Shown here: in pieces, positions 23,488 through 42,386 of the stretch
How the letters are laid out: every line of letters begins with the position of its first letter
How positions within the stretch are numbered: position 1 is the stretch's first letter
Origin: Pseudomonadota bacterium
GTDB lineage: Bacteria; Pseudomonadota; Gammaproteobacteria; Burkholderiales; Gallionellaceae
Direction of reading: 5' to 3'
Assembly (NCBI GenBank): GCA_021821945.1
Contig: JAJZTF010000007.1
Span: 62,001 to 126,000, forward strand
Length of the DNA: 64,000 nucleotides
Position numbers and translations under genes: made by a program
The notes under the pieces: generated by a model
Databases searched by the model: none
What the model saw: the letters and a program-made list of their open reading frames with translations, nothing else
What the model was told of the DNA's origin: nothing

Positions 23488-23688
23488 CTACTTCTTACCG
23501 CTTCGCCTTTGCACGACATCCCAGGCCATGTAGGCCATCACGCAGAAGACAAGCGTGCAGACGGCGAAGATGATGCGCTGTTCGGATTCGCTGCTGACCA
23601 GCCCGCCGACAAACATGTGCACCGAATATCCCGCGATGAACAGGGCGCCGATGCCGGCCACCAGGAAGATCAGCATCTCGACCATCAT
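23488..23688 (-). CDS. Small two-helix membrane protein (unknown)
   Basis: A 66-aa protein with two hydrophobic helices (MLIFLVAGIGALFIAGYSVHMFVGG and IIFAVCTLVFCVMAYMAWDVV) and a basic tail. I do not recognise it. It overlaps the upstream 485-aa gene by four bases (ATGA) and is the last gene of the long minus-strand operon, so it is probably translated with it. A small electron-transfer-complex subunit is one possibility. Confidence 0.7.
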   Translation of the reverse strand: MMVEMLIFLVAGIGALFIAGYSVHMFVGGLVSSESEQRIIFAVCTLVFCVMAYMAWDVVQRRSGKK

Positions 23689-25142
23689 GCCCCCGGCTTC
23701 CCTGCCGCAGGTTGAACAGGCGGCTGAACCGCCTCGTGCCTGACCTCGACGATCACGCCGCCCTTTCTGAGATCCACGGTCTCGACCCTTCCTGCCTGCA
23801 TCGTCGCAAGATTTCTCGACAGCGCGCTGTTGGCCGGGTCATGCGGATCGAAAAGCAGATAATCAACCCCCTTCAGCATCGCATACAACGCATCGCCGTC
23901 GCGCGCCTCGGGCGGCAGGGGCAGCGCATCGCAGCGGCAACCCAGCATGGTCAATGCCGGCCATTGGCTTGCGACGCGCAACTTGTGTGCAGGGGCCTGC
24001 CCATGCGCATCCTTCAGCATGTCCTCGGCATTCTCGGAAAACGCGCGTATAAGGGCATCCCTAGCCGCAAGCTCGCCAAGCTGGGTGGACTGATAAGCAG
24101 CCTTGTCATTGAGCATGAAGGAAGTCGAGACAAGGAAAATCAGAACCAGCGCGATGCCCCGCTGCGCCCAGAATCCCCCCTCCGCATTGGATCTCAGGAT
24201 CACAGGCAGTCCCCAGTAGAGAACGACGGTCAGCGCGGCCAAGGCAAAGGTGCCATCGCCGATGAAAATTCCGATGACGAGCGATGCAAGCAGCATGCGC
24301 CCGAGCAGATCCTTCCACATTCTGCCGGACTGACTGATCGCGACCCAGAGCAGAAGGAGCAGCATGCCCGTACCTGAAATCCAGCCGCCCACACCCAGAT
24401 CGCCTTCGGAGGGGCCGAGAAGCATGCTGGAGGCCGCCCTCACTGGATTGCCAAACCAAGATATGTGATGCCAGCCCAGGGTCAGGACCAGCGCGATCAC
24501 CGTGGCGGAGATGATCCCGGCGAACACATAGTTGCGGCGTTCGCGATCCAGAGGATTCCTGTGCCAGCTCCAGAGCAGCATCAGGGGATAGGCAAGCCCC
24601 ATGGGATGAAGCGTTGCCGAGATCAGCGCCAGGAAGACCTGACCGAAATACACCCCGCCCAGGGCCTGCCTGGATTCGCGGTATGTCTTGTCAGTCCACG
24701 CCCCCATCGCAAAGACAAAAAGCAAAAAAGGGCCGACCGACATCGTGTCGATCTGGCTCAGCACCAGTGGCGAGATCAGGAGCAGTCCCGTTGCAATCAG
24801 GGATGACTCCTCCTGTTCGCTGATTCCTTTCCGCCAGCCGTGCAGCGCCCATGCGACGATTGCCATCACGATGATCGTCGTCACCTTCGCCGCGATCAGG
24901 TTCCCGGTCCAGAGTGCGCCTGCCGGAATGAAGAACAGCGTGCGAAAATCCGGCAGGCCCATGGTCACGATGGAACTGACCACGCCATCGGCGACGGACC
25001 AGACCAGCAGCAGCGCATGAGCGCCCCCTTCGTCGAGCCCGAAGTTTGTCTTGTTGAGCATCATGATCACGGCGGCACCCCAGAGCGCGAGCGCGAAGTA
25101 GGCCAGATATTCCTTGGGGATGCGCGATAGCAAGTTATTCAT
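23685..25142 (-). CDS. Large polytopic membrane protein, unknown function
   Basis: A 485-aa protein with roughly ten hydrophobic helices in the first 350 residues and a soluble C-terminal part (SQWPALTMLGCRCDALPL, LLFDPHDPANSALSRNL). The overall plan, with an early acidic loop (LDEGGAHALL) and a C-terminal periplasmic-type domain, is loosely like GT-C glycosyltransferases, but no sequence signature confirms this. It lies 72 bases after the SCO gene in the respiratory operon. Confidence 0.7.
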   Translation of the reverse strand: MNNLLSRIPKEYLAYFALALWGAAVIMMLNKTNFGLDEGGAHALLLVWSVADGVVSSIVTMGLPDFRTLFFIPAGALWTGNLIAAKVTTIIVMAIVAWALHGWRKGISEQEESSLIATGLLLISPLVLSQIDTMSVGPFLLFVFAMGAWTDKTYRESRQALGGVYFGQVFLALISATLHPMGLAYPLMLLWSWHRNPLDRERRNYVFAGIISATVIALVLTLGWHHISWFGNPVRAASSMLLGPSEGDLGVGGWISGTGMLLLLLWVAISQSGRMWKDLLGRMLLASLVIGIFIGDGTFALAALTVVLYWGLPVILRSNAEGGFWAQRGIALVLIFLVSTSFMLNDKAAYQSTQLGELAARDALIRAFSENAEDMLKDAHGQAPAHKLRVASQWPALTMLGCRCDALPLPPEARDGDALYAMLKGVDYLLFDPHDPANSALSRNLATMQAGRVETVDLRKGGVIVEVRHEAVQPPVQPAAGKPGA

Positions 25143-25214
25143 ACTCAGTCCGTCGTAGCCAGTTAACCTTGAGATTGTACCGCACTGTCGTCGCGCGCTG
25201 TCTGAAAATCGGCG

Positions 25215-25808
25215 CTACTGGTTGATCGACAAAAGCAGCCTGATGTCTTCTGCCATCTGTTCCGCCGGCGCTTCATAGCGGGAAAGCAGCAAGGGCTTCC
25301 CTCTGGTTCCCAGAAGAAAGATGCCATCGCTGTGATCCAGCGTGTAGCCGCCGTGCTTGTCATACTGCTTCTGGTAATTCACGCCGAAGGACTGGGCGGC
25401 CTGTTGCGTGGCCTTAGCATCGCCATAAAGCCCGAGAAAGGACGGATCGAAAGAAGTCACGAATTTTGCAAGCAGCGCGGGCTTGTCCCGCTCCGGGTCC
25501 AGCGTGACAAATATCACCTGCACCCTGGCCGCATCCGGCCCCAGGATGCGCATTACCTGGGCAAGGTCGGCGAGGGTGGTGGGGCAGACATCCGGACAAT
25601 GGGTATAGCCGAAGAAGAGTACGACGACCTTGCCCCTGAAATCAAGCAGCGTGCGCGGTTTCCCATTGAAGTCGAAAAGCGAGAAGTCCGCATGGGTATG
25701 CTGCCAGGTCACGTCTATCGCATGGTATGGCGAAGGCGGATCGTTCTGGCTGCACGCGGGCAGCAACAGAACAAAGAGCAGCGATGCGGCGAATCCCAAC
25801 CCCCTCAT
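25215..25808 (-). CDS. SCO1/SenC/PrrC family copper-thioredoxin
   Basis: A 197-aa exported lipoprotein (lipobox LLPAC, Cys19) with a thioredoxin fold and the copper ligands CPDVC (71-75) and a distal histidine in LDHSDGIFLL. SCO proteins deliver copper to oxidase CuA or CuB centres or act as thiol reductants. Here it sits in an operon with CcoG and downstream of a cbb3-like oxidase that has CuB but no CuA, so a CuB-loading role is likely, perhaps together with the PCu(A)C protein at 8.1 kb. Confidence 0.92.
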   Translation of the reverse strand: MRGLGFAASLLFVLLLPACSQNDPPSPYHAIDVTWQHTHADFSLFDFNGKPRTLLDFRGKVVVLFFGYTHCPDVCPTTLADLAQVMRILGPDAARVQVIFVTLDPERDKPALLAKFVTSFDPSFLGLYGDAKATQQAAQSFGVNYQKQYDKHGGYTLDHSDGIFLLGTRGKPLLLSRYEAPAEQMAEDIRLLLSINQ

Positions 25809-25815
25809 GCGATGC

Positions 25816-26232
25816 TCACTTGCCCTTCCTGTGAACCGCCTCTTGCTCCCTCTCGGCGTCCTTCTCGTTCTTTATCGAGACTTCATTCCTGTGCACCATG
25901 TACCAGATGAACGCACCGGCTGCGCTGATGTAAAGCAGCGAGCCCAGAAAGCCCGGGTCCTTCACCCAGTCCGTCCATTTCACGACCACACCGGGTCTCA
26001 ATCCCCAGAACGGGAAACTCAATCCCACGCCCACCAGGAACACGCTCGCCACGACCGCCCAGAACCAGTAAGGCACCTTGAGCTGGGATTCCGGAATCTT
26101 CTCGACCAGTTCCCAATCCTCCATGCCGCGCTTGTCCAGGCGCTCTTCGTTGGAGCCGTAGCCGAAGTGATCCTCGCGCAGCTTTCCCCATTGCGTCTTT
26201 TCACCCGACAGTTCCAGATTGTCCTGTTCCAT
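25816..26232 (-). CDS. Two-helix membrane protein, short paralogue of the 212-aa oxidase-operon protein
   Basis: A 138-aa protein. An acidic N-terminal region (residues 1-55) precedes a helix VVASVFLVGVGLSFPFWG and a second helix LLYISAAGAFIWYMVHR. The segment FPFWGLRPGVVV resembles FPLWGQRPTASL in the 212-aa protein at 33755-34393, which has the same two-helix plan. The start at 26232 has AGGAGA 7 bases upstream. It lies between ccoG and SCO. No known family is recognised. Confidence 0.75.
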   Translation of the reverse strand: MEQDNLELSGEKTQWGKLREDHFGYGSNEERLDKRGMEDWELVEKIPESQLKVPYWFWAVVASVFLVGVGLSFPFWGLRPGVVVKWTDWVKDPGFLGSLLYISAAGAFIWYMVHRNEVSIKNEKDAEREQEAVHRKGK

Positions 26233-26242: not shown

Positions 26243-27580
26243 CTAATCGACAAAATGCTGCAATTCAAAGCGCCCGACCCAGCCATCGCGCGAGCGCACC
26301 ACGACCGTAAAGGGATGCAGTCCGTGCGACAGCGAGGGGGACATGGAAAGAAGCACCGATGCCCTCCCGACCGTCGGCAGGCTCACCCTGTTGCCGCTCA
26401 ATGTATAGCTGCCGGCAGGCAGACCTTCCACCGCGACATCCAGTTCCGCAGGGCGATACCGCTTGTTGGCGATCTCGATGCGATAGTCCCGCGCCGACTG
26501 GCTGTGCCCCATCTGCACATATCCCGCAGAGAGGTGGTAGGGCTGGTAAGACCACAAGCCCCAGGCGAACATCGCCACCCCCAGAACCGCAATGGGCATG
26601 GTCCAGCGCATCCGGGACAGGAGCGCGATGGAATTGTCCCTGAACTTGCCCAGCCTGGTTTTCGCGCGCTCCCCGAACTCGAAGCGCAGGAGACCGGTCC
26701 CCCCTTTCTTCGCATGGAGTGCGTTGCACGCATCAATGCAGTCGCCGCAGTTGATGCAGCTGTCGTAGATCATGGTCTTGCGCGGATCGAGCCCGATGAA
26801 GCAGGTGGTCACGCAGAAATTGCACTTCTCGCATTCGGACGACCTGCTCTCGTCGTAGAGCACATGCAGTGTCTCCTTGGTCTTGAAGGAATGCTGCCAG
26901 ACCCTGTAGACGCAGGCGAAGCGGCACCAGAAGTGCCTGAGCACGGAGACATCGAGCAGGATGATCAGCACCCAGACGAAATAGATCCAGTGCAGGGAGC
27001 CCGCAAGCCTGGGATCATTCCTGAACAGGATGAAGGAAAGCACTACGTCCGGCGGATAGAAATAGAGCAGCGGCAACAGCGCGAACAGCATGGAGGCGCC
27101 GATGAGAGACAGGGCAAGCAGGGTCCAGTTGAGCGCCTTGTTCTTGGAGGCGGCAACCTTGAGCGCCTCCCCGTTCAGGCTGATCTCGGCGCGCTTCCCG
27201 AGCAGCTTTCTTGTCATGTGGTTTGCCCATTCAGCCATCGAGTTCTGAGGGCATGCCCAGCCGCAGAACACGGTGCCCGCAGTCGAATAAAGCGCAACCA
27301 GCAGCGTCGCCAGGGTGATCCACAAACCGGTTATCAGGAAAAAGTCGGAAAACCAAACCTGCCATCCCAAAACCACCAGCGCCCCGTTTTCAGGATCGAT
27401 CCTGAATAGCCCGGAAACCGGAATCAACACCAGCGCCACCAGGAATGCAATCTGAACTGCCCGCCGCTTCCAGCGAAAATTGTTCATTCTTGATCCGCCG
27501 CTGACGACCTTCACCGGTATGCTGGATAGCGTCTTGTTCATCGCTGATGACATGTTCACCTTCATTCTAACCGCCTTCAT
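26243..27580 (-). CDS. ccoG: CcoG/RdxA/FixG-type membrane ferredoxin
   Basis: A 445-aa inner-membrane protein linked in cbb3 systems to copper reduction for CuB assembly. It has about five helices, an N-terminal CGWACPQN motif, two 4Fe-4S motifs (CEKCNFCVTTCF and CINCGDCIDACN) and a C-terminal Ig-like domain (YRIEIANKRYRPAELDV ...). The ATG overlaps the stop of the preceding gene (ATGA); an ATG five codons later is an alternative. The neighbours SCO and the cbb3-like oxidase fit. Confidence 0.92.
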   Translation of the reverse strand: MKAVRMKVNMSSAMNKTLSSIPVKVVSGGSRMNNFRWKRRAVQIAFLVALVLIPVSGLFRIDPENGALVVLGWQVWFSDFFLITGLWITLATLLVALYSTAGTVFCGWACPQNSMAEWANHMTRKLLGKRAEISLNGEALKVAASKNKALNWTLLALSLIGASMLFALLPLLYFYPPDVVLSFILFRNDPRLAGSLHWIYFVWVLIILLDVSVLRHFWCRFACVYRVWQHSFKTKETLHVLYDESRSSECEKCNFCVTTCFIGLDPRKTMIYDSCINCGDCIDACNALHAKKGGTGLLRFEFGERAKTRLGKFRDNSIALLSRMRWTMPIAVLGVAMFAWGLWSYQPYHLSAGYVQMGHSQSARDYRIEIANKRYRPAELDVAVEGLPAGSYTLSGNRVSLPTVGRASVLLSMSPSLSHGLHPFTVVVRSRDGWVGRFELQHFVD

Positions 27581-30156
27581 AAGGCGCTCTTCGCCTCGGA
27601 ATCCAGGGGAGCGACCGCGAGCAGCCTCAAGCGGTATCGCTCCGCCTCCTCCTTGTTTCCCGCCGCCTTCTCAAGATGCCAGAGGGCGCGCAGCGCACCC
27701 GCATGGTCCGGGGATATCTTGAGCACGCGCTGCAGCGCCTCGCGTTCGCTCAAGCCGTGTTCGCGCGCCTGTATCAGCGACTGCATCATACTATCAGCTA
27801 GCGCATTGGCAATCCAGCGATCGTGCGGATTCGCCTGATATGCCATCCAGATCATCTGCACCGATTTGGATTCATCCCCCCTGATGGCAGATATCCAGGC
27901 TTCATTGGTCAGCGTGGCAGCCATGTAGGCCCGGCCGAATGCCTCCCTGTCCTGCCTTTGCACCCCCAGGATATCCGCTGCAGCATCGACATCCGGATGG
28001 CGCATCATCAGCCATGACAGCAGATTCGCCAGATTCACGCTTCCATCGTAACGCGCCTTTGGCAGGCTGTATTCGATGTAGGGCACCCATTCATCCTGAA
28101 CCTTTCCCGCGCTTTGAGGCACAGGTCCCCAATAGCGCCCGAGCCAGGTCCACATTCCCTCGTTCCCTGTGGCCGGACCATCGTCCTTCATCCTCTGAAG
28201 GTTGCGCTTCATCGCATCTGCGATGAGGAGGGGCTTGTTGGGCCCGACGAGCGCCAGATGCATGCCGTCCATGAACATCTGTGCATCAGGGAAAACCTGC
28301 CTGAAGCTCCGCAGCACGACGGACAGCGATCCGATGTCGAACTGGTTCAAAGCAAGCCACTGCACGAATATCCCGTCCGGACTCAGATGGCGCCTCGCGC
28401 GCCCGAACTGCTGCACGGAAAGCAGGGATCCCATGCCGGCGAGATCAGGGTGGAAAAGGTCCCCTATGATCACGTCGTATTTCCTGTCTGTGGCATCGAG
28501 GTAATGCCGCGCATCATCGCGGTACACCCGGGCCTGGTCGACAGCGCCTCCGTTCACCTCGGAAAACCAGTTCCTTGCCGCATGGATCGCGCCCTGCGAC
28601 AGTTCGACAGCACTTCTGTCGAGATTCGGAAAAGGAAGAGATCCGCCCATCGAGATCCCCGTCCCCAGCCCCAGGAACAGCACAAGTTTGGGATCGGGAT
28701 GCAAAAGCAGGGCCAGCCTTGCCTGATCCATCTGTATCTCGACGGCGGCAGGGTCGCTGGATGCATCCATGCGCTGAAGATCCGTGAGCAGGATGCGCTG
28801 CCCATCCTTGCGGCCGATCACATGCGTCAGCGAGACGGCATCCTCGTACAGGTAGAGATCCCTGCTTCCTCCTTCAGCGATCGGCAGCAATTCATGCACA
28901 GGCGGCATGCTGCGCAGCGGCCATGCGCAAATCAGCAGAAATGCAAAGCCCGCCCAGCCCCATCTCGCATTCAATCCTGCGAGTCCGAAGCCTGAGATAG
29001 CAAGGGCAGCGATGGCGACCAGCGCCGCAGTGCCATGGTTAGGAATCACGACGAGGCAGGCAAGAAGCGCACCCAGCCCTCCGCCCAGGCTGTTCGCGCC
29101 ATAAAGCCACACCGCACTGGCATCCTTGTGGCGTTCGGCCAGCAAAGGCAGCCATGCACCCAGAACCAGCGTGACAGGCAGCGTGAATAGCGCCGCAATC
29201 GCGGCCTGTGCGCCGATTGCGCCAAAGAAAGAGCCGAACTGGCTTCCCTCGACCCAGGAGGATGCGACGGGCAAAAGCCAGAGGCCAAGCAGCGCACCGC
29301 CTCCCGAGACGATGGGCAGGATGGCTGCAATCCTGCGCGGCGCGAAAAGGCTGCCAAGCGCGATGCCGGTCAGGAAAACCGCCAGTATCACGCCCAGCAC
29401 ATATTCGGTGCGCAGCATGATCATGCCGTAAAGCCTCACCCAGCCCACTTCCAGCATCAGACTTCCCGCGCCTATGCCCGCATAAAGAAGCAGCGCCGAC
29501 ATGGGCGGGCGCGGCAAAGTAGCTTTGGATGCTCCTGATCCAGTGTATCTCGAGAAATGCAGCGCGGCGCCCCCCACCAGCAATCCCAGAATCGCGGCAA
29601 CCCTGACCGAACCCGTCCATCCAAGGACAGGGAGCCCCCACAGGGGAAAGAGCGCCCCCAATGCGCCGCCGATGGTATTGAGCCCATAGAGTTTCCCGAG
29701 CGTCAACGGCGTCTCATCGATGGCCTTCAGCACCAGCGTAAAACCGACACCCATCGCAAAGGCGGGGAGCAGGAGCAGGCTGACCGCCTCTAGCGCCTGC
29801 AGCAAATACCAATGCATGAGGCCCAGCCTTCCCGACGCATCTTCCAGCCAGAGGCTTGCATGACGCATGAGACCGGGCAGCGCCAGCGCATACAGCGCAA
29901 CGGCCACCTCTATGCCCGCGAATGCGGCAAGGGGATTCCCGGCTTTCCATTTCACGCCGGCGATGCTTCCGCTGCCCAGGCCCAACATGAACGCGGTGAC
30001 GGTCAGCACGACGCCGAAGATGCTGACGCCAAACTGCATGGACAGCATGCGCGACCACAGCACTTCATAAGCCAGGCTTGTGAATCCTGAAAGCGCATAG
30101 AGCAGCGCCACGCCCCACCACCATGGCCTCGCGCCGTTGCCGGAAATTGAATTCAC
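27577..30156 (-). CDS. Very large membrane protein with spermidine-synthase-like domain
   Basis: An 859-aa protein. Residues 1-420 form about 13 membrane helices resembling fused-MFS spermidine synthases (YALSGFTSLAYEVLWSRMLS is the typical opening). A Rossmann aminopropyltransferase-like domain follows (LFLGLGTGISMGGSLPF; DVIIGDLFHPD), then a helical, TPR-like C-terminus (MAYQANPHDRWIANALADS). Polyamine synthesis is not proven; many such fusions have no tested activity. The start is GTG. Its stop overlaps ccoG, so it is made with the oxidase assembly genes. Confidence 0.8.
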   Translation of the reverse strand: MNSISGNGARPWWWGVALLYALSGFTSLAYEVLWSRMLSMQFGVSIFGVVLTVTAFMLGLGSGSIAGVKWKAGNPLAAFAGIEVAVALYALALPGLMRHASLWLEDASGRLGLMHWYLLQALEAVSLLLLPAFAMGVGFTLVLKAIDETPLTLGKLYGLNTIGGALGALFPLWGLPVLGWTGSVRVAAILGLLVGGAALHFSRYTGSGASKATLPRPPMSALLLYAGIGAGSLMLEVGWVRLYGMIMLRTEYVLGVILAVFLTGIALGSLFAPRRIAAILPIVSGGGALLGLWLLPVASSWVEGSQFGSFFGAIGAQAAIAALFTLPVTLVLGAWLPLLAERHKDASAVWLYGANSLGGGLGALLACLVVIPNHGTAALVAIAALAISGFGLAGLNARWGWAGFAFLLICAWPLRSMPPVHELLPIAEGGSRDLYLYEDAVSLTHVIGRKDGQRILLTDLQRMDASSDPAAVEIQMDQARLALLLHPDPKLVLFLGLGTGISMGGSLPFPNLDRSAVELSQGAIHAARNWFSEVNGGAVDQARVYRDDARHYLDATDRKYDVIIGDLFHPDLAGMGSLLSVQQFGRARRHLSPDGIFVQWLALNQFDIGSLSVVLRSFRQVFPDAQMFMDGMHLALVGPNKPLLIADAMKRNLQRMKDDGPATGNEGMWTWLGRYWGPVPQSAGKVQDEWVPYIEYSLPKARYDGSVNLANLLSWLMMRHPDVDAAADILGVQRQDREAFGRAYMAATLTNEAWISAIRGDESKSVQMIWMAYQANPHDRWIANALADSMMQSLIQAREHGLSEREALQRVLKISPDHAGALRALWHLEKAAGNKEEAERYRLRLLAVAPLDSEAKSAL

Positions 30157-30220: not shown

Positions 30221-30607
30221 CTAGAAGGGATAGAACCAGACCAGGCCGACTATCGCATGAGCGATCGCCATGGACACGCTAAGGCCGGCAAAAAGCATGT
30301 GGGGCACATATACCTGCTTGCCGTACAGGCCCATGGCCAGACCAAGCGCACCGGTGATCAGGACGAGAATGAACAGCACGACCCCCATCAGGAACATGAT
30401 CTGCTGCTTTTCCTTTTGCGGAATCGATTTCTCGCGCTCGTCCTGCTGATGCTGCTTGTTGAAAGCCTGCAATATTTGCGCGCTGTCTTCGCCGTTCGAG
30501 ACCGCCTCTGCGTGAGCCAGGTTGATGGAAGAGAACATCGCTACCAGCAGCACGCCCGCGAAACGCAGGGAAAACCGGCTGAAAAAGATATTGAGAATGC
30601 GTGACAT
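30221..30607 (-). CDS. Exported/membrane protein of the respiratory operon (unknown)
   Basis: A 128-aa protein with an N-terminal signal-like helix (FAGVLLVAMFSSINLAHAEA), a charged middle (KQHQQDEREKSIPQKEKQQ) and two further helices (MFLMGVVLFILVLITGALGLAMGL and MLFAGLSVSMAIAHAIVGLVWF). Histidines at the second pair of helices (VPHMLF, IAHAIVG) could bind heme, which is speculative. It starts 4 bases after the preceding small gene. I recognise no family. Confidence 0.72.
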   Translation of the reverse strand: MSRILNIFFSRFSLRFAGVLLVAMFSSINLAHAEAVSNGEDSAQILQAFNKQHQQDEREKSIPQKEKQQIMFLMGVVLFILVLITGALGLAMGLYGKQVYVPHMLFAGLSVSMAIAHAIVGLVWFYPF

Positions 30608-30611: not shown

Positions 30612-30860
30612 TCAATCTGTGATGGGTTTATGGGCTACGTCGGATGACGGGCTGCTCGATTTCTTCATCGCAACCCGCCAGGCCAGCACGGCCATCAGCA
30701 CGAAGGGAACGAACACGCCCATCAGAAGAAAGATGAAGATATACCAGGGCGTGGCGATGGTCACATGGGTAAAACGGTAACTGTCGACCGCAGCATGCGC
30801 GTTTGCCGCCAGAAGCCAGGACATCATCAGCCCGGATTTGATTGACTGTTTGTACATCAT
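30612..30860 (-). CDS. Small signal-peptide/one-helix membrane protein (unknown)
   Basis: An 82-aa protein: signal-like N-terminus (SGLMMSWLLAANAHA), a short periplasmic stretch and one long helix (IFIFLLMGVFVPFVLMAVLAWRVAM) with a Ser/Pro-rich tail. GGAGG precedes two adjacent ATGs; the second has better spacing. It belongs to the run of closely spaced genes between the SUMF1-like and spermidine-synthase-like genes. Confidence 0.7.
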   Translation of the reverse strand: MMYKQSIKSGLMMSWLLAANAHAAVDSYRFTHVTIATPWYIFIFLLMGVFVPFVLMAVLAWRVAMKKSSSPSSDVAHKPITD

Positions 30861-30885
30861 GCACCTCCGATGATCCATTTACATT

Positions 30886-33162: not shown

Positions 33163-33375
33163 TCAGAAAAGGTAGCCCGCAAGCATCTGCATCGCTCCGA
33201 TGATCACGGCTGCCACTATACCAAGAATGATTGCGCCGAACATCCATTTCTCCCCGGTTCTCATGTTTCCCTTGCGGCTCACATGAGTCATCATAGCAAA
33301 GACGATGCCGGAAAAAACGGCTATGCCGACCAGCAGGAACACGAACACCCATTCGCTGAATTGCTGGCTGCGCAT
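33163..33375 (-). CDS. Small two-helix membrane protein (unknown)
   Basis: A 70-aa protein with helices VFVFLLVGIAVFSGIVFAMM and WMFGAIILGIVAAVIIGAMQML separated by a basic loop (SRKGNMRTGEK). It begins the long operon that continues down to 23488, 21 bases ahead of the CcoS-like gene. No family is recognised. Confidence 0.7.
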   Translation of the reverse strand: MRSQQFSEWVFVFLLVGIAVFSGIVFAMMTHVSRKGNMRTGEKWMFGAIILGIVAAVIIGAMQMLAGYLF

Positions 33376-34393: not shown

Positions 34394-34406
34394 ATTCATC
34401 CCCCCC

Positions 34407-35363
34407 TTATTTCAGGCTCAACATGAAGTCGATCAGACTGCGGATTTCGGAGTTGCTAGCATAGCTAGGCACTTCCGGCGGTGTGACGCGCTTGCCTTCG
34501 GTATATTCGCTGTACTCCTGCCTCCACTTGGCATAATCGATCTTGTTGCCGTTTGCATCCTTCTCGCCCCACAGGTAATCGAAACGGGGCATGATGGAAT
34601 GCGGCTGCACCAGACGCGGATTGAAGAAGTGCATCATCATCCACTCCCTTGAGGAATTGCGCGAACCCACGTGCAACAGGTCGGGCGCCTTTCTGTCGGA
34701 ACCGAAAGCGGTTGGTGATTCACCGTTGAAGTCACCCTGCATGGGTGGGGCACCGAAAACCTGCCAGTCCTGGGTCTCTTCAGGAAGCAGGGTGTGGCAC
34801 CACCAGCAGCCTTCGCGAACGAACATGGTCTTGCCCGCACCCGCATGAGAAACATCCTCATCCTTGGCGACCTTCATCACATCTTCAGGCTTCCAGCCCT
34901 TGGTCGTGCTGAGGTCCTCGATGAAGTTCACTTCCTTGCCCTGGTATACCGCCTTGTTCAGCGCGAAAACGGCACCCTCTTCCTTGCGCGCATCTTCGAT
35001 GTGACCCTGCTGAACGCTCAGCTCTTCGACCCCCGTTCCAAGTATCCTGGGATGCAGGATACCGGCCGGGAAGGGCGTACCCGCGGGATAGACAAATACC
35101 GTCTGCTGCTGAGCCAGAGGCTGACCCGTCTTGGGATCAGTCTTCAGGTTCACGATCAGCGGCTTGTTCTTGCCCTTGAGAAGCGGGTCATCCAGGTTGA
35201 AGCCCGTTTCATGTCCGACGGACAGCTGCTTTGCCAGCGCCACATCGGTCGACGCAGTCGATGCGATGTTGATACTGGGAAAGAACAGCGTGATCGCCAT
35301 CGATCCGCTCAGCGCGAGGCCGAATATCCTCGCGCCGATCTTATACTCTCTAAATCCAGCCAT
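34407..35363 (-). CDS. CcoO-like membrane cytochrome c subunit, enlarged
   Basis: A 318-aa protein. N-terminal anchor at about 11-31; one heme motif CWWCH at 186-190 in the CcoO-like context GKTMFVREGCWWCHTLLPEE, then DLLHVGSRNSSREWMMMHFF and a methionine ligand in PHSIMPRFDYLW. Ordinary CcoO is near 200 aa; here about 110 extra residues lie between anchor and heme (PLIVNLKTDPKTGQPLAQQQ ...). It is 23 bases after the catalytic subunit. It should pass electrons to heme b of that subunit. Confidence 0.88.
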   Translation of the reverse strand: MAGFREYKIGARIFGLALSGSMAITLFFPSINIASTASTDVALAKQLSVGHETGFNLDDPLLKGKNKPLIVNLKTDPKTGQPLAQQQTVFVYPAGTPFPAGILHPRILGTGVEELSVQQGHIEDARKEEGAVFALNKAVYQGKEVNFIEDLSTTKGWKPEDVMKVAKDEDVSHAGAGKTMFVREGCWWCHTLLPEETQDWQVFGAPPMQGDFNGESPTAFGSDRKAPDLLHVGSRNSSREWMMMHFFNPRLVQPHSIMPRFDYLWGEKDANGNKIDYAKWRQEYSEYTEGKRVTPPEVPSYASNSEIRSLIDFMLSLK

Positions 35364-35386: not shown

Positions 35387-36793
35387 TTAACGCTCGTATT
35401 GCAACTCATGAGGCATGCGGCCTGCAGGGATCACCGTACCTTTTCTGGCAGTCATCCACATGTTGTAGAGCCACATCGTATTGCCGGTGAACACCAGCGT
35501 ACCTCCGAGCCAACGCGCGATCATGTAGGGATGTTCGGCAATGACCACATCGATGTATGGAACTTCATAAATCTTGCCAGCACCCTGGATCAGACCTGCG
35601 ATCGTCATCGAGACCCAGTAGGTCGTGAAGCCGACGAGCAAGAGCCAGAAGTGCATGTTTGCGAGCTTCAGGGAATAAAGCTTGCGGTTCAGCAGGGTTT
35701 GCAGACCGAGATACACGGCAGCAGCCTCAAGGAAGGTGGAGAAGCCCAGGAGCGCCAGGTGCGCGTGAGCAACGATCCAGCCAGTTCCGTGGATGTACCA
35801 GTTGATCGCGCGAGTCTGCTGGAAGCCGCCCTGCATGTTCAGGGGGATCGCCATCAGACAGCCGGTGATCGTGAAGCGCACTTCCACGTTCTCGACGAAC
35901 ATGTGCCACTTGCCCTTCATCGTCAGCATGATGTTGGACACGAAAGCGATCGCGGGAACCAGGATCAGCACGCCCTCAACCGATGCAAAGGACTTCAGCC
36001 ACTCTGGCAGAGGTGCGGACATCAGGTGATGCGCTGCAGGTGTCGAGTAGAACACGACCACGGACCAGAAGTGCAGGTGGCCGATGCGGTGCGAATACAG
36101 AGGATTGCCCGTGATCTTGGGGATCGTGTAATAGGCGATCGCAGCTGCAACGGGCGTGATCCAGAGACCCAGCACGTTATGAGCAAACCACCATGTCAGA
36201 TAGGCTTCCGTCAGACCGGTCAGATGGAAGAACTCGGGAGAGTTGCCCACCAGGAACACGATGATGACCATGAAGGTCGCCGCCGCGAAGAACCAGTTCG
36301 TGGTGTAGATACCCTGGGTGCGGCGGTTCAGTATCGTCATCCACACGTTCACGCCCAGAGGAATGAACACGAAGCTTGCGAGATACAGATCCACAGGCCA
36401 AGGGAAGTCCGAATACTCGCGACCCGATGTGATGCCTGCCCACAGCACGGTCAGACCGACCAGCAGGCCGACGTTCCACAGCATGCAGTTCCAGATGCCC
36501 AGTTTTTCCGACCAGAGCTTGTTGTTGCCAAGCGCCGGCGTGATGTACATCATGGCCATCGCAAACGCCATCGATATCCATCCGAAGATAACTGCCAGCA
36601 CATGCACCTGGCGCATATGGCCGAATGCAAAGTACATGTCACCCGTGACAAAGTCGGGAAATGCGAGCTTGGCCGCATTGAAAGACCCCAGCCCGGTTCC
36701 GATGACGAACCAGATGATTGATGAGAAACCAAAGAATACCGCCGATGCTCCCGACGGAATATCCTCATTCTTGGCCATTAGATATTTAAACAT
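35387..36793 (-). CDS. Divergent cbb3-like heme-copper oxidase catalytic subunit (CcoN-like)
   Basis: A 468-aa protein with 12 predicted helices. CuB ligands: His205 (WWFAHNVLG) and His255-His256 (PAAHHL). Tyr249 sits six residues before the HH pair, as the cross-linked tyrosine of C-family oxygen reductases does, and unlike NorB. Heme ligands: His64 (RQVHV; His59 is near) and His343/His345 in WIVAHAHLALLGF. The glutamate of the cbb3 STFEGP motif is replaced (LNMQGGFQ), and the TM-X region (INWYIHGTGW) looks more NorB-like. So it is an atypical member, most likely an O2 reductase. GGGGGT precedes the ATG. Confidence 0.9.
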   Translation of the reverse strand: MFKYLMAKNEDIPSGASAVFFGFSSIIWFVIGTGLGSFNAAKLAFPDFVTGDMYFAFGHMRQVHVLAVIFGWISMAFAMAMMYITPALGNNKLWSEKLGIWNCMLWNVGLLVGLTVLWAGITSGREYSDFPWPVDLYLASFVFIPLGVNVWMTILNRRTQGIYTTNWFFAAATFMVIIVFLVGNSPEFFHLTGLTEAYLTWWFAHNVLGLWITPVAAAIAYYTIPKITGNPLYSHRIGHLHFWSVVVFYSTPAAHHLMSAPLPEWLKSFASVEGVLILVPAIAFVSNIMLTMKGKWHMFVENVEVRFTITGCLMAIPLNMQGGFQQTRAINWYIHGTGWIVAHAHLALLGFSTFLEAAAVYLGLQTLLNRKLYSLKLANMHFWLLLVGFTTYWVSMTIAGLIQGAGKIYEVPYIDVVIAEHPYMIARWLGGTLVFTGNTMWLYNMWMTARKGTVIPAGRMPHELQYER

Positions 36794-36978: not shown

Positions 36979-37260
36979 TCAAGCGGCGGCCTGCTCCCAT
37001 TTTTCGTGACGACCGAGCGCTACGATCATGATCAGGCAGAAAGCCACACCGAATACGATCATCGCCCAATCGATGAAGCCTGTGAAAGTGCTCGGATCGT
37101 ACGCCGTGCCATTGATGCCGCCCCAGTTTTCAAAACCACCGCGCCCCATCAGACACATCAGCGTTGCACCAAACACGCTGCCATTCCCCATACCCGTCAG
37201 CATGCCGCCGATCAGAATCAACCAGAAAGACCGAAGTTTCAAAGGCTTTTTCGTACTCAT
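36979..37260 (-). CDS. Small two-helix membrane protein, first gene of the oxidase operon
   Basis: A 93-aa protein: basic N-terminus (STKKPLKLRS), helix FWLILIGGMLTGMGNGSVFG, a Gly/Asn-rich loop (GRGGFENWGGINGTAYDPST) and helix WAMIVFGVAFCLIMIVAL. A G-rich ribosome site (GGGGGG) precedes the ATG. I recognise no family. It is transcribed ahead of the 36-aa and CcoN-like genes. Confidence 0.78.
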   Translation of the reverse strand: MSTKKPLKLRSFWLILIGGMLTGMGNGSVFGATLMCLMGRGGFENWGGINGTAYDPSTFTGFIDWAMIVFGVAFCLIMIVALGRHEKWEQAAA

Positions 37261-37751: not shown

Positions 37752-37970
37752 ATGGATTCAAAAGACATACACGCAGAAAAAGAAGCCAAACTGAAAGAAT
37801 TGCAAGCTCAGGAAGAAAAGTTGAAGGAACTGCAAACCGATCTGGCCAAGCTGAATGCCAAGATCAAAAATCACGAACAGCTCTCTCCTGAAGATACCAA
37901 GTTTGTCAGCGAACTCGGATGGATCAGCGCCCTTTCCGTGACCATCGCCGCCATCGCCGCAAGCATGTAA
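37752..37970 (+). CDS. 72-aa coiled-coil/single-helix membrane peptide (ELGW family)
   Basis: The first 45 residues are a charged heptad-like helix (EKEAKLKELQAQEEKLKELQ), followed by LSPEDTKFVSELGWISAL and a hydrophobic end SVTIAAIAASM. The C-terminal part matches the 55-aa peptide at 54780-54947 (MSKDDVKFIGELGWLSAAAV). It has its own consensus promoter and a GGGG ribosome site, which suggests high expression. No known family is recognised. A tail-anchored regulatory or complex-associated peptide is plausible. Confidence 0.8.
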   Translation: MDSKDIHAEKEAKLKELQAQEEKLKELQTDLAKLNAKIKNHEQLSPEDTKFVSELGWISALSVTIAAIAASM

Positions 37971-38329: not shown

Positions 38330-38851
38330 ATGAGCTCTGCCTCTACGCAACAACCCCTGCTGAAATTTCTGCTGTTTTCCGCGTTTTCATTTTTTGTCGG
38401 CACCGTGCACGGCATGCTGCAAGTGATGCCGCCGATACGCGCATGGCTGGACTCCATAGGCAGCCCATACGGCGGCCCAGGCCACATGATAGACCCCTTG
38501 GCTCATGCCCACATGAATCTGGTCGGCGGCGTCGTGCTGCTCGCAATGGGCGTGACCTATTATCTTGTCCCGGTCTTCACATCGAAAAAGCTTTATTCGA
38601 CAAGGCTGCTCAATCACACCTTCTGGTGGGTCAGCATAGGGGTCTACAGCTTTTACATCATACAGATGGTCTTCGGGATCTGGGAGGGGATGCTGCTGCA
38701 CTCCGATCCGCTGAAAATTCCCTCGGTGCACCGCTTCTACGGCCCGCTGATTGCAGTCTCAGGCACCGCGATGCTGGTCGGCTTCACGACCTATCTAGCC
38801 AACCTCCTGCTCACCGTGTTCAAGGGGCAGCCTAATCCACCGAGAGGGTGA
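38330..38851 (+). CDS. 'Half' heme-copper subunit I protein (C-terminal helices only)
   Basis: A 173-aa protein with about five helices. LAHAHMNLVGGVVLLAMGV (His59, His61) matches the TM-X heme-ligand motif of the CcoN-like protein (VAHAHLALLGF), and KKLYSTRLLNHTFWW matches its RKLYSLKLANMHFWL. The CuB ligands of helices VI and VII are absent because that half is missing. It could bind heme but not a CuB centre. The upstream in-frame ATG at 38246 runs into the terminator, so 38330 is preferred. Its 3' end overlaps the convergent lipoprotein gene by 20 bases. Confidence 0.85.
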   Translation: MSSASTQQPLLKFLLFSAFSFFVGTVHGMLQVMPPIRAWLDSIGSPYGGPGHMIDPLAHAHMNLVGGVVLLAMGVTYYLVPVFTSKKLYSTRLLNHTFWWVSIGVYSFYIIQMVFGIWEGMLLHSDPLKIPSVHRFYGPLIAVSGTAMLVGFTTYLANLLLTVFKGQPNPPRG

Positions 38852-39212
38852 CCGGGAATTCCAGTATCTTCTCCCGCTCCCCCTGCTGGATCTTCACCCT
38901 TATCACCGCTTTATTTCCGTTTCCGAGATCGACGGCCCGGCGATAGACTCCGATGAATCCATCCTGGATTGCCTGCACCCAGGGCAGCGTTTCATCCCCT
39001 CGCAGATAGATCGTCAGATCGGATACCGGCCTGCCTCTTGGACCTGTTGCGATGACCACCACGTCCGACATTCCGGGAAGAGGGGGATTGGGGTGCGTCT
39101 CTATCCTGACATCCACGTCATTCCAGTGCTGCACTGGGATCGATATCTGGCCCCCGCCGGAATCGCAAGCCGCAAGCATCCAGAGCAGACCGAAGAGCAG
39201 CAGTCTTTTCAT
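38832..39212 (-). CDS. Small lipoprotein (unknown)
   Basis: A 126-aa precursor with a signal and lipobox LLWMLAAC (MKRLLLFGLLWMLAACDSGG). The mature part is beta-rich (DVDVRIETHPNPPLPGMSDV, RGRPVSDLTIYLRGD), resembling an Ig-like FixH/YtkA-type domain, though the match is only by appearance. It is the last gene of the 41300-to-38832 operon, 46 bases after the 154-aa gene. Confidence 0.75.
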   Translation of the reverse strand: MKRLLLFGLLWMLAACDSGGGQISIPVQHWNDVDVRIETHPNPPLPGMSDVVVIATGPRGRPVSDLTIYLRGDETLPWVQAIQDGFIGVYRRAVDLGNGNKAVIRVKIQQGEREKILEFPVTLSVD

Positions 39213-39258: not shown

Positions 39259-39723
39259 TCATTTCGGCTGGCATTGCTTCTTGAACGCATCCCGGGCGGA
39301 AGCGAACCTGTCCTCGTCCGGAAACTGCCCCTTGTGGAACACGAATTGCAGCAGTTTCCCGCTTCCATCCTGGCCCGACAGACCGAAGGATTTCCCCGCA
39401 TAGTCGGGGAAATACCTGAGATTCTTCACAAGATCTATCCTCACCCCGTTTTTCTGGATGAGGCCAACGCCCTGCTCCCCCACCATGAGGGCCACGGGTG
39501 CCGAGGGAAGCAACATCAGCCTGGTCTTGAATACCCTGTTGAAACCTGCAATGAAGAAGAAGCAGGTCAGAAAGAACAGCAGATAACTCGTGTTGTGCTC
39601 GTTTCCATACCAGAGGCTTGCAGAAATGGAACCCAGCGCCACCACGGTCGGAACATAAAGCAGGAGATCCCAGACCATCCCGCGGCGATCTGCGACCAGA
39701 TCGAATTTCACAGCCTCTTTCAT
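39259..39723 (-). CDS. Membrane protein with two helices and soluble C-terminus (unknown)
   Basis: A 154-aa protein: helices LLLYVPTVVALGSISASLWYG and YLLFFLTCFFFIAGFNRVF, then a soluble domain (VGLIQKNGVRIDLVKNLRYF ... KLLQFVFHKGQFPDEDRFA) that looks like a small PH-like beta domain. Function unknown. It is between the thioredoxin-like and lipoprotein genes in the same operon. Confidence 0.72.
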   Translation of the reverse strand: MKEAVKFDLVADRRGMVWDLLLYVPTVVALGSISASLWYGNEHNTSYLLFFLTCFFFIAGFNRVFKTRLMLLPSAPVALMVGEQGVGLIQKNGVRIDLVKNLRYFPDYAGKSFGLSGQDGSGKLLQFVFHKGQFPDEDRFASARDAFKKQCQPK

Positions 39724-39737
39724 TGATATGCCCGTTG

Positions 39738-40226
39738 CTAAAGGATAACCTTGATTGCGCCATCCAGCTCGCCGGAAAGCATGCGGCCCGCCTGCTCGAA
39801 ACGGACTATGCCGTTTTTGTCTATGATGAAGGTCCAGGGGTCGCCCATCACGTTGTACGCCCTGTAGGCCTGGGGATTCTCATACTGGTCTATGTGTATG
39901 AAAATGATTCTGTCCTGATATTTCTCGAGCATCCCCTGCAGCATCTGCAGCTGCTGGTCGCAATTCGTGCAATGCCCCGGTGTTGCGAATTCAAGCACGA
40001 CAGGCTTGCCGCTCTGAAGCGCCTTATCTATCGAATACTTGTACATCCTTGGATCGGGCTGCCGGTAGGTCGTGAGCTTGCTGAGATTGCCACCGACATC
40101 CGAAAGCGTCTTGGTAGGCAGGCTGGGCGCTTTCGATCCGACATTGAATCCCGAGGACAGACGCTGCTCCCCGCAGCCTGCAATCAGGCCCAGAATCAGG
40201 ATACCGGCAACCCACGCATGTTTCAT
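39738..40226 (-). CDS. Thioredoxin-fold lipoprotein
   Basis: A 162-aa precursor: lipobox GLIAGC (Cys18), then a thioredoxin fold with GKPVVLEFATPGHCTNCDQQ and a cis-Pro type segment MGDPWTFIIDKNG. The active site is CTNC rather than CGPC. Such proteins act in thiol exchange for cytochrome c or copper-site assembly. The ATG overlaps the stop of the half-oxidase gene (ATGA). Confidence 0.85.
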   Translation of the reverse strand: MKHAWVAGILILGLIAGCGEQRLSSGFNVGSKAPSLPTKTLSDVGGNLSKLTTYRQPDPRMYKYSIDKALQSGKPVVLEFATPGHCTNCDQQLQMLQGMLEKYQDRIIFIHIDQYENPQAYRAYNVMGDPWTFIIDKNGIVRFEQAGRMLSGELDGAIKVIL

Positions 40227-40741
40227 TTCGGCCTCTGCCATCCGCACTTGGTCGTCTTGTACAGATTGTAACCCCAGATGATGTTGGCCGTGAGCACCAG
40301 GATGCCGAATATGCCGACGAGCGCCATGAAGCTGTTGACCATTCTTTCCGCATCCGGCCCTTCGACCAGTCCACCCGCAAGGCCCGCCATCAGGAAGAAC
40401 ACAACCATGCCCAGAAGGCCGAAGTTGTGCATCCAGAAATGCACCTTGACCAGCTTGAGGCTCCAAATCTGCCTCATCGAAACGGTGGGCACCACGTAAT
40501 ACAGCGATGCGAATATCGCCATTTCCACCCAGCCCAGGAGATTGATGTGGCCGTGCGCCAGCGTGATCAGCCGCCCATGCGCGCTGTAGTCGACAAAATG
40601 GCGATATGCCGGGATGCCGCCCATGATCGCACCCCATGAAAATCCCACGATGCTGTATATGATGCAGGCGTAGACGAACCAGATTACGTATTTCCTGTAC
40701 TCCGCCGCTTCTGCCGGCGTATGTTCAATGCTTTGCATCAT
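40223..40741 (-). CDS. 'Half' heme-copper subunit I protein, second copy
   Basis: A 172-aa protein with about five helices. YSAHGRLITLAHGHINLLGW (His63, His65) matches the TM-X heme motif of NorB/CcoN proteins, and IWSLKLVKVHFWMHNFGLLG matches YSLKLANMHFWLLLVGFT of the CcoN-like protein. Helices carrying CuB ligands are missing. It is translated between a monoheme cytochrome c (17-base overlap) and a thioredoxin-like lipoprotein, so a heme b/heme c electron-transfer pair is plausible. Confidence 0.85.
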   Translation of the reverse strand: MMQSIEHTPAEAAEYRKYVIWFVYACIIYSIVGFSWGAIMGGIPAYRHFVDYSAHGRLITLAHGHINLLGWVEMAIFASLYYVVPTVSMRQIWSLKLVKVHFWMHNFGLLGMVVFFLMAGLAGGLVEGPDAERMVNSFMALVGIFGILVLTANIIWGYNLYKTTKCGWQRPK

Positions 40742-41300
40742 GCTGCTCCTCTTTGCCTTTCATCCAGTCACGTATGTCGGTGAAACTCGTCTTCCATCCC
40801 GCAGGCGTCCACATCTGGACCATCGCATCCACGAAGCTCGATTGCTCTTCGGGTGGCTCAAATGAAGACGAGGATCCCTGGTCGGCTTTCAATTCGGACA
40901 GGAAAACCGCCATGGAATGAAGTTCCGCATCGGGAAGATCGGAAACGTATGCCGCATCCTTTGGAGGATCACCGTGATCCAGCGTTCTTGCGCCATAGGT
41001 TTTTTCGGGATTCTTCAGAAAATTGTAGAAATAGGTCACGTCGTGCTTCGACCCGAGACCATCCAGACTCACCCCCATGCTGGTTCCGCTTCCCACCGCA
41101 TGATGGCATTCGTAGCATCCTCTTTGCTGATAGATGCCGTAACCCTTCTCCCCTTCCGCCGTAAACTCGTAATGCGTCAGTATGGGAAACAAAGGTTTGG
41201 CTGAATGATGCCTGATGGACTCAAGCGAAAAGAAGCTGATTATCGTAATGACAACCAGCAGGCCTATAATGCCAAAAAGAATTTTTTCGCCGAGCTTCAT
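40725..41300 (-). CDS. Membrane-anchored monoheme cytochrome c, paralogue
   Basis: A 191-aa protein with N-terminal anchor (ILFGIIGLLVVITIISFF) and heme motif CYECH at 62-66. The Met ligand is probably in the ELHSMAVFLSEL region. The opening MKLGEKILFGIIGLLVV resembles the cytochrome at 32384-32866. It begins the operon with the half-oxidase gene, and is separated from the cytochrome c4-like gene upstream by a strong terminator. Confidence 0.88.
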   Translation of the reverse strand: MKLGEKILFGIIGLLVVITIISFFSLESIRHHSAKPLFPILTHYEFTAEGEKGYGIYQQRGCYECHHAVGSGTSMGVSLDGLGSKHDVTYFYNFLKNPEKTYGARTLDHGDPPKDAAYVSDLPDAELHSMAVFLSELKADQGSSSSFEPPEEQSSFVDAMVQMWTPAGWKTSFTDIRDWMKGKEEQHDAKH

Positions 41301-41361: not shown

Positions 41362-41400
41362 AAAAAACAAATTCCAGCACCCATCCCTGGGTGCTGGAAT
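41362..41400 (-). terminator. Rho-independent terminator after the diheme cytochrome gene
   Basis: A perfect 13-bp stem (ATTCCAGCACCCA / TGGGTGCTGGAAT) with TCCC loop at 41371-41400, followed on the minus strand by TTGTTTTTT. It ends the cytochrome transcript and isolates the 41300 operon. Confidence 0.85.
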
Positions 41401-41411
41401 TCGAATGGATA

Positions 41412-42209
41412 TTACTTGGTGATCTTGACGTTCTTCATGACCATCTCGTTGTCGATCTCGTATCCATCGCCGGGCGTGCTGTCTTCAGCCTGGGAAAGAT
41501 AGGTTGCCGCATTGTTGATGTCGTCGTCGCTGAGATTCTTTGCGATCGCGCGCATCTGGCCAAGCGGATCATTGACACGTCCGTTGGCAGGATCGGCCTT
41601 GGGATCATTTGCTCCATTGCGCCAGTCATGCAACTGGTTGACGATGTAGACAAACTTCTGCTGCCCGATCTTTGGATAGACAGGATCCGCACCGCGGCCA
41701 TCGAAGCCATGGCAGGTCTGGCATGCCGAAACCTTGCTGCCGTAACGGACCAGTATCTTGCCCTTGTATGCCTCGCCAACCGGCTGGCCGGCAGCCTTAA
41801 GCGCCGCCAGATCGGACAGATCCGCCTTGCTTGGCTTGGGCAAGGAATTGACATAGGCAGCAACGTCGCGCTTTTCCTGCTCGGTAAGGGATTTCGCAAA
41901 GCCATTCATGGCCGCACCCAGACCCTGGGGCGTACGCTTGTCTTCCGCAAAATTGTTCAACTGCTTGACCACATATACGTATCCGATATTGGCCAGGCGG
42001 GGAGTGCCCATGTCGTCATTCCCCATTGCTTTTTCACCATGGCATGAACTGCAAGCCGGCACGCTGCCATCCGCCTTGCCGTTTGTAAAAATATTCTTGC
42101 CGTTCGTTATGTTTGCCGTGACTGGCGCGCCCTCTGCAAAACTAGCGCCTGAAAAAGCCAGCATGGTGGCGGTCCCCCAACACACCATTGCCAATTTGGA
42201 TAATCTAAG
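41412..42209 (-). CDS. Periplasmic diheme cytochrome c (c4-like)
   Basis: A 265-aa precursor with signal peptide (MLAFSGASFAEG) and two class I heme domains: CSSCH at 54-58 and CQTCH at 164-168. The doubled domain and length resemble cytochrome c4, known to feed cbb3 oxidases. The C-terminal tail (GYEIDNEMVMKNVKITK) is an addition. GGGGAGG precedes the ATG at 42209. A 34-aa peptide gene is 72 bases upstream on the same strand. Confidence 0.9.
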   Translation of the reverse strand, partial: LRLSKLAMVCWGTATMLAFSGASFAEGAPVTANITNGKNIFTNGKADGSVPACSSCHGEKAMGNDDMGTPRLANIGYVYVVKQLNNFAEDKRTPQGLGAAMNGFAKSLTEQEKRDVAAYVNSLPKPSKADLSDLAALKAAGQPVGEAYKGKILVRYGSKVSACQTCHGFDGRGADPVYPKIGQQKFVYIVNQLHDWRNGANDPKADPANGRVNDPLGQMRAIAKNLSDDDINNAATYLSQAEDSTPGDGYEIDNEMVMKNVKITK

Positions 42210-42281
42210 CATGCACCCCTCCCCCACTAAAAATTAACAATCCGCACGAAGTGCAGATAAATCATTCCTTGATATCGACTA

Positions 42282-42386
42282 TCAGGAGCCTTTTTTCATC
42301 AAAATAAATGCTACACCATACAAAAATGCAAAAATGCATGCATACATGATTATTACTTGAGTTGTTGTTACGTCTGGTTCAAGCAT
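42282..42386 (-). CDS. Single-helix miniprotein, 34 aa
   Basis: Reads MLEPDVTTTQVIIMYACIFA then FLYGVAFILMKKGS: one helix, acidic N-terminus, Lys-rich C-terminus. AGGGGAG lies 7 bases before this ATG, better than the longer in-frame starts. It precedes the diheme cytochrome gene and likely shares its message. Same size class as the peptides at 36822, 33595 and 38114, though the sequences differ. Confidence 0.62.
   Translation of the reverse strand: MLEPDVTTTQVIIMYACIFAFLYGVAFILMKKGS

Follow-up and report, generated by a model that had tools for sequence, protein, structure and literature searches.

A conserved gene module around a divergent CcoN-like oxidase subunit in Gallionellaceae and other bacteria

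The gene island described here occupies positions 23488-42386 of a 64,000-nucleotide stretch (the window) of a Pseudomonadota bacterium of the family Gallionellaceae (GenBank assembly GCA_021821945.1, contig JAJZTF010000007.1, positions 62,001-126,000). The source genome comprises 2.47 Mb in 28 contigs, and its genus mates include Gallionella metagenome-assembled genomes (MAGs). At the center of the island lies the gene of a CcoN-like catalytic subunit (468 aa, 35387-36793, minus strand), which we assign, from its sequence, to the C family of heme-copper O2 reductases, as a third lineage beside canonical and long-frame CcoN; about 20 neighboring genes travel with this subunit as a conserved module. 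The initial annotation had seen here an island of minus-strand gene blocks around an atypical cbb3-like oxidase. The island is real, and open reading frames for the 468-aa CcoN-like, 318-aa CcoO-like, CcoG-like, SCO, and CcoS-like proteins lie where that annotation had placed them; the three further c-type cytochromes (160, 191, and 266 aa, the last with two hemes) and about ten membrane proteins without a usable Pfam match are present as well, the CcoS-like call being made on a sub-threshold FixS match (E 0.022). Most genes do lie on the minus strand, but a conserved short CcoN-like gene (38330-38851) is on the plus strand. This gene, a second short CcoN-like gene (40223-40741), and the gene of a 70-aa membrane protein (33163-33375) had not been named in the initial annotation.

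The neighbors were counted among relatives of the subunit. In a scan of 84,980 species 151 relatives were found; the best 80 of these (the 80 named loci, all 82-98% identical) were analysed, and each count takes only the loci that reach as far as the gene in question. Because the sequence of most loci stops some 10 kb away from CcoN, the more distant genes were recounted in 16 genomes belonging to the window's order, where either flank measured up to 18 kb, and in 12 putative zetaproteobacterial genomes with likewise longer stretches (together the long-flank set); contig ends make these counts lower bounds. All genes are on the minus strand unless the plus strand is given. The CcoN gene is followed by the gene of a CcoO-like monoheme cytochrome c with an enlarged N-terminal part (318 aa, 34407-35363; FixO 64 bits; 79/79 testable loci) and by that of a heme-less protein with a CcoP-type (FixP_N) membrane anchor and two transmembrane (TM) helices (214 aa, 33755-34399; 75/75). 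Further along lie the genes of the small 70-aa membrane protein (tblastn match at E<=0.1 in 95/130 loci), the CcoS/FixS-like small membrane protein (92 aa, 32863-33141; 69/72), a membrane-anchored monoheme cytochrome c (160 aa, 32384-32866; Cytochrom_C 28 bits, one CXXCH, one TM; 67/70), and a membrane protein of a family without Pfam match (149 aa, 31938-32387; 67/70, and 10/10 carriers searched whole). These are followed by the genes of a membrane-anchored protein of the FGE/SUMF1 fold (350 aa, 30886-31938; FGE-sulfatase 197 bits; 67/70), a small single-TM protein (88 aa, 30612-30878; 63/66), a small membrane protein (128 aa, 30221-30607; 61/64), an 859-aa protein in which a membrane part is joined to a spermidine-synthase-like domain (27577-30156; Spermine_synth 32 bits; 61/64), a CcoG-like 4Fe-4S membrane protein (445 aa, 26243-27580; TIGR02745 122 bits, below the cut-off of 317; 57/62), and a second heme-less anchor protein (25816-26232, start picked by eye; 54/60). 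On the other side, CcoN is adjoined by the gene of a small membrane protein (93 aa, 36979-37260; 75/76). Inspected by eye, the FGE-like protein seems to be without the cysteines on which catalysis by formylglycine-generating enzymes depends, and it may therefore have a structural role.

The catalytic subunit scores 258 bits against COX1 and 226 bits against the ccoN equivalog model, the cut-off of which (583) is not reached. A tree of 52 rows was calculated with LG+C20 PMSF, all reference rows coming from the window's own order. The nitric oxide reductases (NORs) stand outside (support 100/100), and the island family groups with CcoN, within which three clades are formed: canonical CcoN with 12 rows (99/99), a long-frame class with 9 rows (100/98), and the island family with 20 rows (100/100), whose stem is 2.14 changes per column long. 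The 468-aa subunit is therefore not placed inside canonical CcoN, the outcome that the initial annotation had named as refuting its view. The sister pairing among the three clades has a support of only 74/24, and the outer relations might come out differently in a tree of wider sampling.

The residues H64, H205, H255, H256, H343, H345, and Tyr249 are kept in 20/20 aligned rows of the family, so the full set of heme and CuB ligands and the active-site tyrosine, which had been reported for the window's protein, extends to its relatives. The NorB glutamates and the HLWVEGVWE motif are absent. A NOR would be suggested by the NsrR-like gene that adjoins the island in the window and by the fact that NORs are relatives of the subunit, but Tyr249 is kept, the NorB glutamates are lacking, the NORs form their own clade, NsrR is found in only 2/16 genomes of the order and 0/12 putative zetaproteobacterial genomes of the long-flank set, and in 7/26 carriers the island subunit is the only full-length heme-copper oxidase. 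This identity was rejected, and we give it a probability close to negligible. An atypical cbb3-like oxidase that most likely reduces O2, as the initial annotation had it, agrees with both the C-family position outside the NORs and the conserved ligands.

The acidic residue of the STFEGP motif is replaced by glutamine (QGGF in 20/20 family rows; E or D in 12/12 canonical rows). The loss of this glutamate and the TM-X motif had been given as marks of the island oxidase; they do set it apart from canonical cbb3, but the Gln and the AHAHLxLxGF motif are common to the island family and the long-frame class, which also shares GHNVLGL-like motifs and the active-site tyrosine. The long-frame class differs in forming its own clade, in its 553-800-aa frames as compared with 468 aa, and in an identity of 32-35%. 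It cannot be described as fused, because its frames are devoid of CXXCH (0/10, and none in L218 either). Two long rows, L215 and L218, are placed near this class in the tree. The locus L215 (G061:C11:44800-49200) holds a 965-aa CcoN frame with three CXXCH downstream, and is thus of the fused type; this relative of the island family reads LHGLYIHY where canonical CcoN has WWxGHN, and passages of one paper report the same odd residues for the oxidases of Nitrospina gracilis and Sinorhizobium (PMC3578206). Two canonical CcoN of the window's genus (L011 and L020) have Asp for Glu (STFDGP).

The subunit could still be that of an ordinary cbb3 oxidase, merely diverged and in a busy neighborhood. Papers on Ferrovum and Nitrotoga do annotate their enzymes as cbb3, as far as their accessible passages go (PMC4725956, PMC6050957), and canonical cbb3 (CcoNOQP, the proximal type) shares with the island the CcoN fold, the heme and CuB ligands, the active-site tyrosine, a CcoO-like subunit, and CcoG. 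The island differs from it in a CcoN of only ~28-33% identity that stands in a separate, long-stemmed clade, in the missing diheme CcoP, in the Gln for the STFEGP acid, and in its module of about 20 genes. As controls, 10 canonical ccoN loci were taken on longer stretches, 21 shorter loci having shown no ccoP motif. Beside these 10 loci the cluster queries match relatives of ccoN, ccoO, and ccoG, with one weak match to a cytochrome besides, 16 accessory queries are matched in 0/10, and a diheme frame, by eye CcoP, is present in 10/10. Moreover, five genomes (G010, G360, G379, G399, and G436) carry the island type and the canonical type as separate clusters. With the separate clade and these controls an ordinary cbb3 identity was rejected, and we regard it as improbable.

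Carriers of the island subunit, at 68-98% identity, belong to Gallionella, Sideroxydans, Ferrovum, Ca. Nitrotoga, gammaproteobacterial MAGs, and putative Zetaproteobacteria. Among 61 relatives of the source genome, itself included, six carry the subunit at 88-100% identity, the match level then dropping to 33%. A search of 300 genomes of the order (E<=1e-73) finds it in the source genome and 11 others (85-88%), while 10 more genomes give matches of 32-35% to longer frames. The best 80 of the 151 relatives include 9 from Nitrotoga, 6 from Ferrovum/Ferrovaceae, 3 from Sideroxydans, and 10 from Gallionella/Gallionellaceae/Gallionellales, the rest being labeled Proteobacteria, Betaproteobacteria, Nitrosomonadales, Gammaproteobacteria, Chromatiaceae, and the like. 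In 398 genomes of the phylum (E<=1e-70), 45 match: the source genome, three at 33-34%, and 41 from three families outside the order. The class of these 41 genomes, which we infer to be Zetaproteobacteria, has 41/78 carriers, with 0/16 in one of its genera (g205). Two single-contig genomes of this class gave no match to the subunit, and Mariprofundus CP-8 and CP-5 are described, in passages of PMC5513912, as having aa3 in place of cbb3. No homologs between 35% and 68% identity appear at the E thresholds used, and the viral contigs scanned for the island gave no match.

Twelve neighbors remain linked to CcoN in 54/60 to 79/79 of the loci that could show them, which is more than chance would give, and the gene order is kept across beta-, gamma-, and putative zetaproteobacterial genomes. 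The 859-aa gene is present in 6/6 carriers among the 61 relatives, with an ortholog in 0/55 non-carriers (Fisher 1.8e-8, relatedness uncorrected; a relative of 33% identity is found in G035), and in 10/10 further carriers, which makes 16/16 carriers searched whole, including those in which the gene has moved. The co-occurrence elsewhere that had been proposed as a check on the island as one system was thus observed. The alternative, that the accessory genes are independent neighbors of the oxidase, can draw on the second block (the genes of the 172-aa, thioredoxin-like, 154-aa, 191-aa, and diheme proteins), which is mobile and sometimes inverted, on the left block lying elsewhere in two mates of genus g115, G310 and G252 (the 859-aa and 149-aa genes stand together there, at 51% and 53% identity), on the 485-aa gene being found in only 1/12 putative zetaproteobacterial genomes, and on G019, a possible case of a module gene without the oxidase. 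In that 160-contig genome without a CcoN match, which is perhaps an incomplete bin, there is an ortholog of the 172-aa gene (G019:C25:8309-8818, 78%), otherwise present in all six carriers. Against this stand the 859-aa counts, the linkage counts, the conserved order, and the canonical controls, by which independence was rejected for the main block; we consider it very improbable.

The members of the second block were counted in the long-flank set, where they reach 14/16 genomes of the order and 7-8/12 putative zetaproteobacterial genomes. The block comprises the genes of a short protein similar to the C-terminal part of CcoN (172 aa, 40223-40741, 4 TM, an HxH ligand motif; 14/16 and 8/12), a thioredoxin-like lipoprotein (39738-40226; AhpC-TSA/Thioredoxin; 14/16 and 8/12), a membrane protein (154 aa, 39259-39723; 14/16 and 8/12), a membrane-anchored monoheme cytochrome c (191 aa, 40725-41300; Cytochrom_C 23.6 bits, one CXXCH, one TM; 14/16 and 7/12), and a diheme cytochrome c, a candidate electron donor (266 aa, 41412-42212; two Cytochrom_C stretches, two CXXCH; 14/16 and 7/12). 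The second short CcoN-like gene (38330-38851, plus strand, start taken from the orthologs; 12/16 and 6/12) and that of a small lipoprotein of unknown family (38832-39212, recognized by its lipobox; 12/16 and 9/12) lie beside it. In the rearranged clusters L056/L059 (G310 and G252), L109, and L110 the second block comes directly after the 214-aa gene, and the genes of the CcoS-like protein and the 160-aa cytochrome are found on the opposite flank of CcoN.

For both short CcoN-like proteins the match to COX1 is confined to the C-terminal part of the model (55 bits over model positions 311-411 for the 172-aa protein; 45.5 bits over 301-411 for the other). In the 172-aa family H63 and H65 are invariant in 35/35 members, and in the other family the HxH is invariant in 18 rows. 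The predicted model of the 172-aa protein (predicted local distance difference test score, pLDDT, 83) matches subunit I of cbb3 with a best E of 3.5e-5. Two short COX1-like proteins were found in 25/26 carriers and one in G323; one of those in G123 has an internal stop. The two proteins can be described as copies of the heme-ligand part of CcoN.

Of the three c-hemes of canonical cbb3, one is in CcoO and two are in CcoP. The CcoO-like subunit of the island also has one c-heme, and the 160-aa and 191-aa membrane-anchored monoheme cytochromes add two. Profile searches and a count of CXXCH motifs found no diheme FixP_N protein in the island, and neither the 214-aa protein nor the second anchor protein contains a CXXCH. 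FixP_N is matched by 34/37 members of the 214-aa family (E<=1), with 9.7e-5 as the best value; a profile comparison links the second anchor protein to this family (E 6e-7, probability 92%). The absence of CcoP noted in the initial annotation thus holds for a heme-bearing CcoP, but not for its anchor, which is of the CcoP type in the 214-aa protein. The residue E37 of the 214-aa family is invariant (37/37), and the window's motif GITEDNN resembles GIRELTN, the form found in four canonical CcoP; an aspartate takes this place in the remaining six. A glutamate of CcoP sits at the proton entrance, and in Vibrio cholerae the CcoP helices alone are reportedly enough for assembly. The predicted structure of the 214-aa protein is modest (pLDDT 73) and gave no useful PDB match. 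The two c-hemes of CcoP seem to have moved to two monoheme cytochromes, with two heme-less proteins keeping a CcoP-like anchor.

We consider it quite probable, from gene content and sequence, that the product of the island is an O2 reductase of the C (cbb3) family, fed by cytochrome c, of a third lineage, and with a dedicated module, working as follows. In lithotrophs with high-potential donors, Fe(II) or nitrite, electrons would pass to the diheme cytochrome c; from there the two monoheme cytochromes anchored in the membrane and the CcoO-like one would relay them to heme b and the heme b3-CuB site, where O2 would be reduced. The two heme-less CcoP-type anchor proteins would have a role in assembly and perhaps in the entry of protons, the short CcoN-like proteins would be extra heme b-binding subunits or scaffolds for heme insertion, and the CcoG-like and thioredoxin-like proteins (with SCO in some genomes) would handle copper. 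Only tentatively do we go further, to a third C-family type that would be an oxidase complex of lithotrophs, distinct in kind: CcoP would be divided between heme-less anchors and separate monoheme cytochromes, the short CcoN-like proteins would add membrane heme sites, the maturation set would be its own, and the enzyme would be the branch point at which electrons from Fe(II), nitrite, or an electrode go to O2 or into reverse electron transport.

Other oxidases of the carriers were inventoried with COX1 in 26 genomes, without a search for bd oxidases. No other full-length heme-copper oxidase was found in seven of them (G006, G073, G310, G314, G364, G411, and G444, 91-100% complete), among which are Gallionella sp. 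ALJrbin.4 (G006) and Ca. Nitrotoga sp. MKT (G314); in G026 and G387 there is one extra frame only, with a NOR-like score. In the window's genome the other oxidase gene follows, by eye, a CyoA-like subunit II gene, and is thus bo3-like. Within the genus, canonical CcoN is present in 2/6 carriers and in 27/31 non-carriers (Fisher p 0.013, uncorrected for relatedness and genome completeness).

Several observations weigh against the proposed working. Because 10/26 carriers have an additional A-type oxidase of bo3-like score and 7/26 have canonical CcoN too, the island oxidase is not always the sole route to O2. The window's own 214-aa protein matches FixP_N only below threshold (E 0.18). For most of the genes counted, three of the misses come from the loci L101 (of G310), L109, and L110; in them the genes of the CcoS-like protein and the 160-aa cytochrome lie on the opposite side of CcoN and the rest of the left block is outside the locus, and the 859-aa frame of G252 has one internal stop. 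Conserved neighbors need not be subunits, and several could be assembly factors; the supercomplex suggested in the initial annotation is for the present hypothetical. Finally, passages of PMC8788666 report that in Sideroxydans ES-1 the distal cbb3 is up on thiosulfate and the proximal one on Fe(II)-citrate; if the distal form there is the island family, the tie to Fe(II) weakens.

Further genes lie at the edges of the island. The gene of a small membrane protein (66 aa, 23488-23688) varies in its place (15/16 and 9/12 long-flank genomes), that of a 10-TM membrane protein without Pfam match (485 aa, 23685-25142), a looser member, is found in 14/16 genomes of the order, and the SCO/SenC copper protein (25215-25808; SCO1-SenC 150 bits) is an occasional neighbor (7/16, two at 81-88% and five at 38-42% identity; 0/12). 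With these counts, SCO and NsrR were rejected as conserved parts. A 34-aa single-TM peptide (42282-42386) has tblastn matches (E<=0.1) in 32/130 loci. In the gap beside CcoN there is a 72-aa frame (37752-37970, plus strand) with matches of 73-94% in 8 locus records, from close relatives only. The island is flanked by an NsrR-like Rrf2 regulator (23038-23487, plus strand) and, by eye, a 2Fe-2S/FAD oxidoreductase-like protein (21503-22456), flanks which are seen in the window and, among the 16 long-flank genomes of the order, in G004 and G010 only.

The novelty of the oxidase itself had been overstated in the initial annotation, since the names cbb3 and distal cbb3 are already given to such oxidases in papers on iron oxidizers and Nitrotoga (PMC4725956, PMC6050957, PMC7029218, PMC8788666, PMC10734462). 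The label cbb3 is used for Ferrovum (PMC4725956, PMC4886054) and Nitrotoga (PMC6050957), and proximal and distal forms are distinguished in Gallionellaceae and Zetaproteobacteria (PMC10734462, PMC7029218, PMC8788666). For Ferrovum JA12, the excerpts of PMC4725956 describe subunits I and II (FERRO_02570/02560) without III and with c-type cytochromes alongside, a co-located cytochrome being proposed to replace subunit III; the other conserved genes of the island are not described in these excerpts. The JA12 enzyme is very probably the island enzyme, since Ferrovum myxofaciens P3G (G235, locus L141) carries the island family. Complex IV-2 of the electrode oxidizer Ca. Tenderia electrophaga, likewise called cbb3 and compared by description only, is very highly expressed, and its expression clusters with that of Cyc1 and ACIII in the part of PMC5371394 covered. 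A conserved zetaproteobacterial cassette with cyc1, PC2, and PC3 is cited in a passage of PMC7029218; like the island it has three c-type cytochromes on one cassette, so that the two may correspond. Cyc1 is stated to act with cbb3 in strain PV-1 (Barco et al., as cited in a passage of PMC5513912), and high expression of oxidases that may be of the island type appears in excerpts of PMC7029218 and PMC5371394.

That the island is the distal cbb3 of the earlier papers on iron oxidizers and nothing further is a serious possibility, if not the probable one. Zetaproteobacteria have proximal and distal forms according to passages of PMC7029218, and in 9 putative zetaproteobacterial genomes the inventory contains only canonical CcoN, the island family, and frames of NOR-like score, so that by elimination the distal form there is probably the island family. 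This link to the label of Ducluzeau (2008) was made by elimination, and neither the module nor the heme-less CcoP-like pair nor the short CcoN-like proteins are described in the papers' passages, a search that covered titles, beginnings of abstracts, and passages, with subscription papers mostly outside. What is new here is the heme-less CcoP-like pair, with the apparent move of the two c-hemes to monoheme cytochromes, and the two short copies of the heme-ligand part of CcoN.

In iron or nitrite oxidation the terminal step usually bears the label cbb3 and is credited with high O2 affinity, proton pumping, and three c-hemes. If Nitrotoga, Ferrovum, and the other carriers use the island enzyme, those properties of cbb3 are assumptions for them. 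The conserved set is a candidate list of subunits for the isolation of the enzyme and possibly a marker of such lithotrophy, and a heme-less CcoP-like protein together with free-standing CcoN-like fragments would bear on the assembly of heme-copper oxidases.

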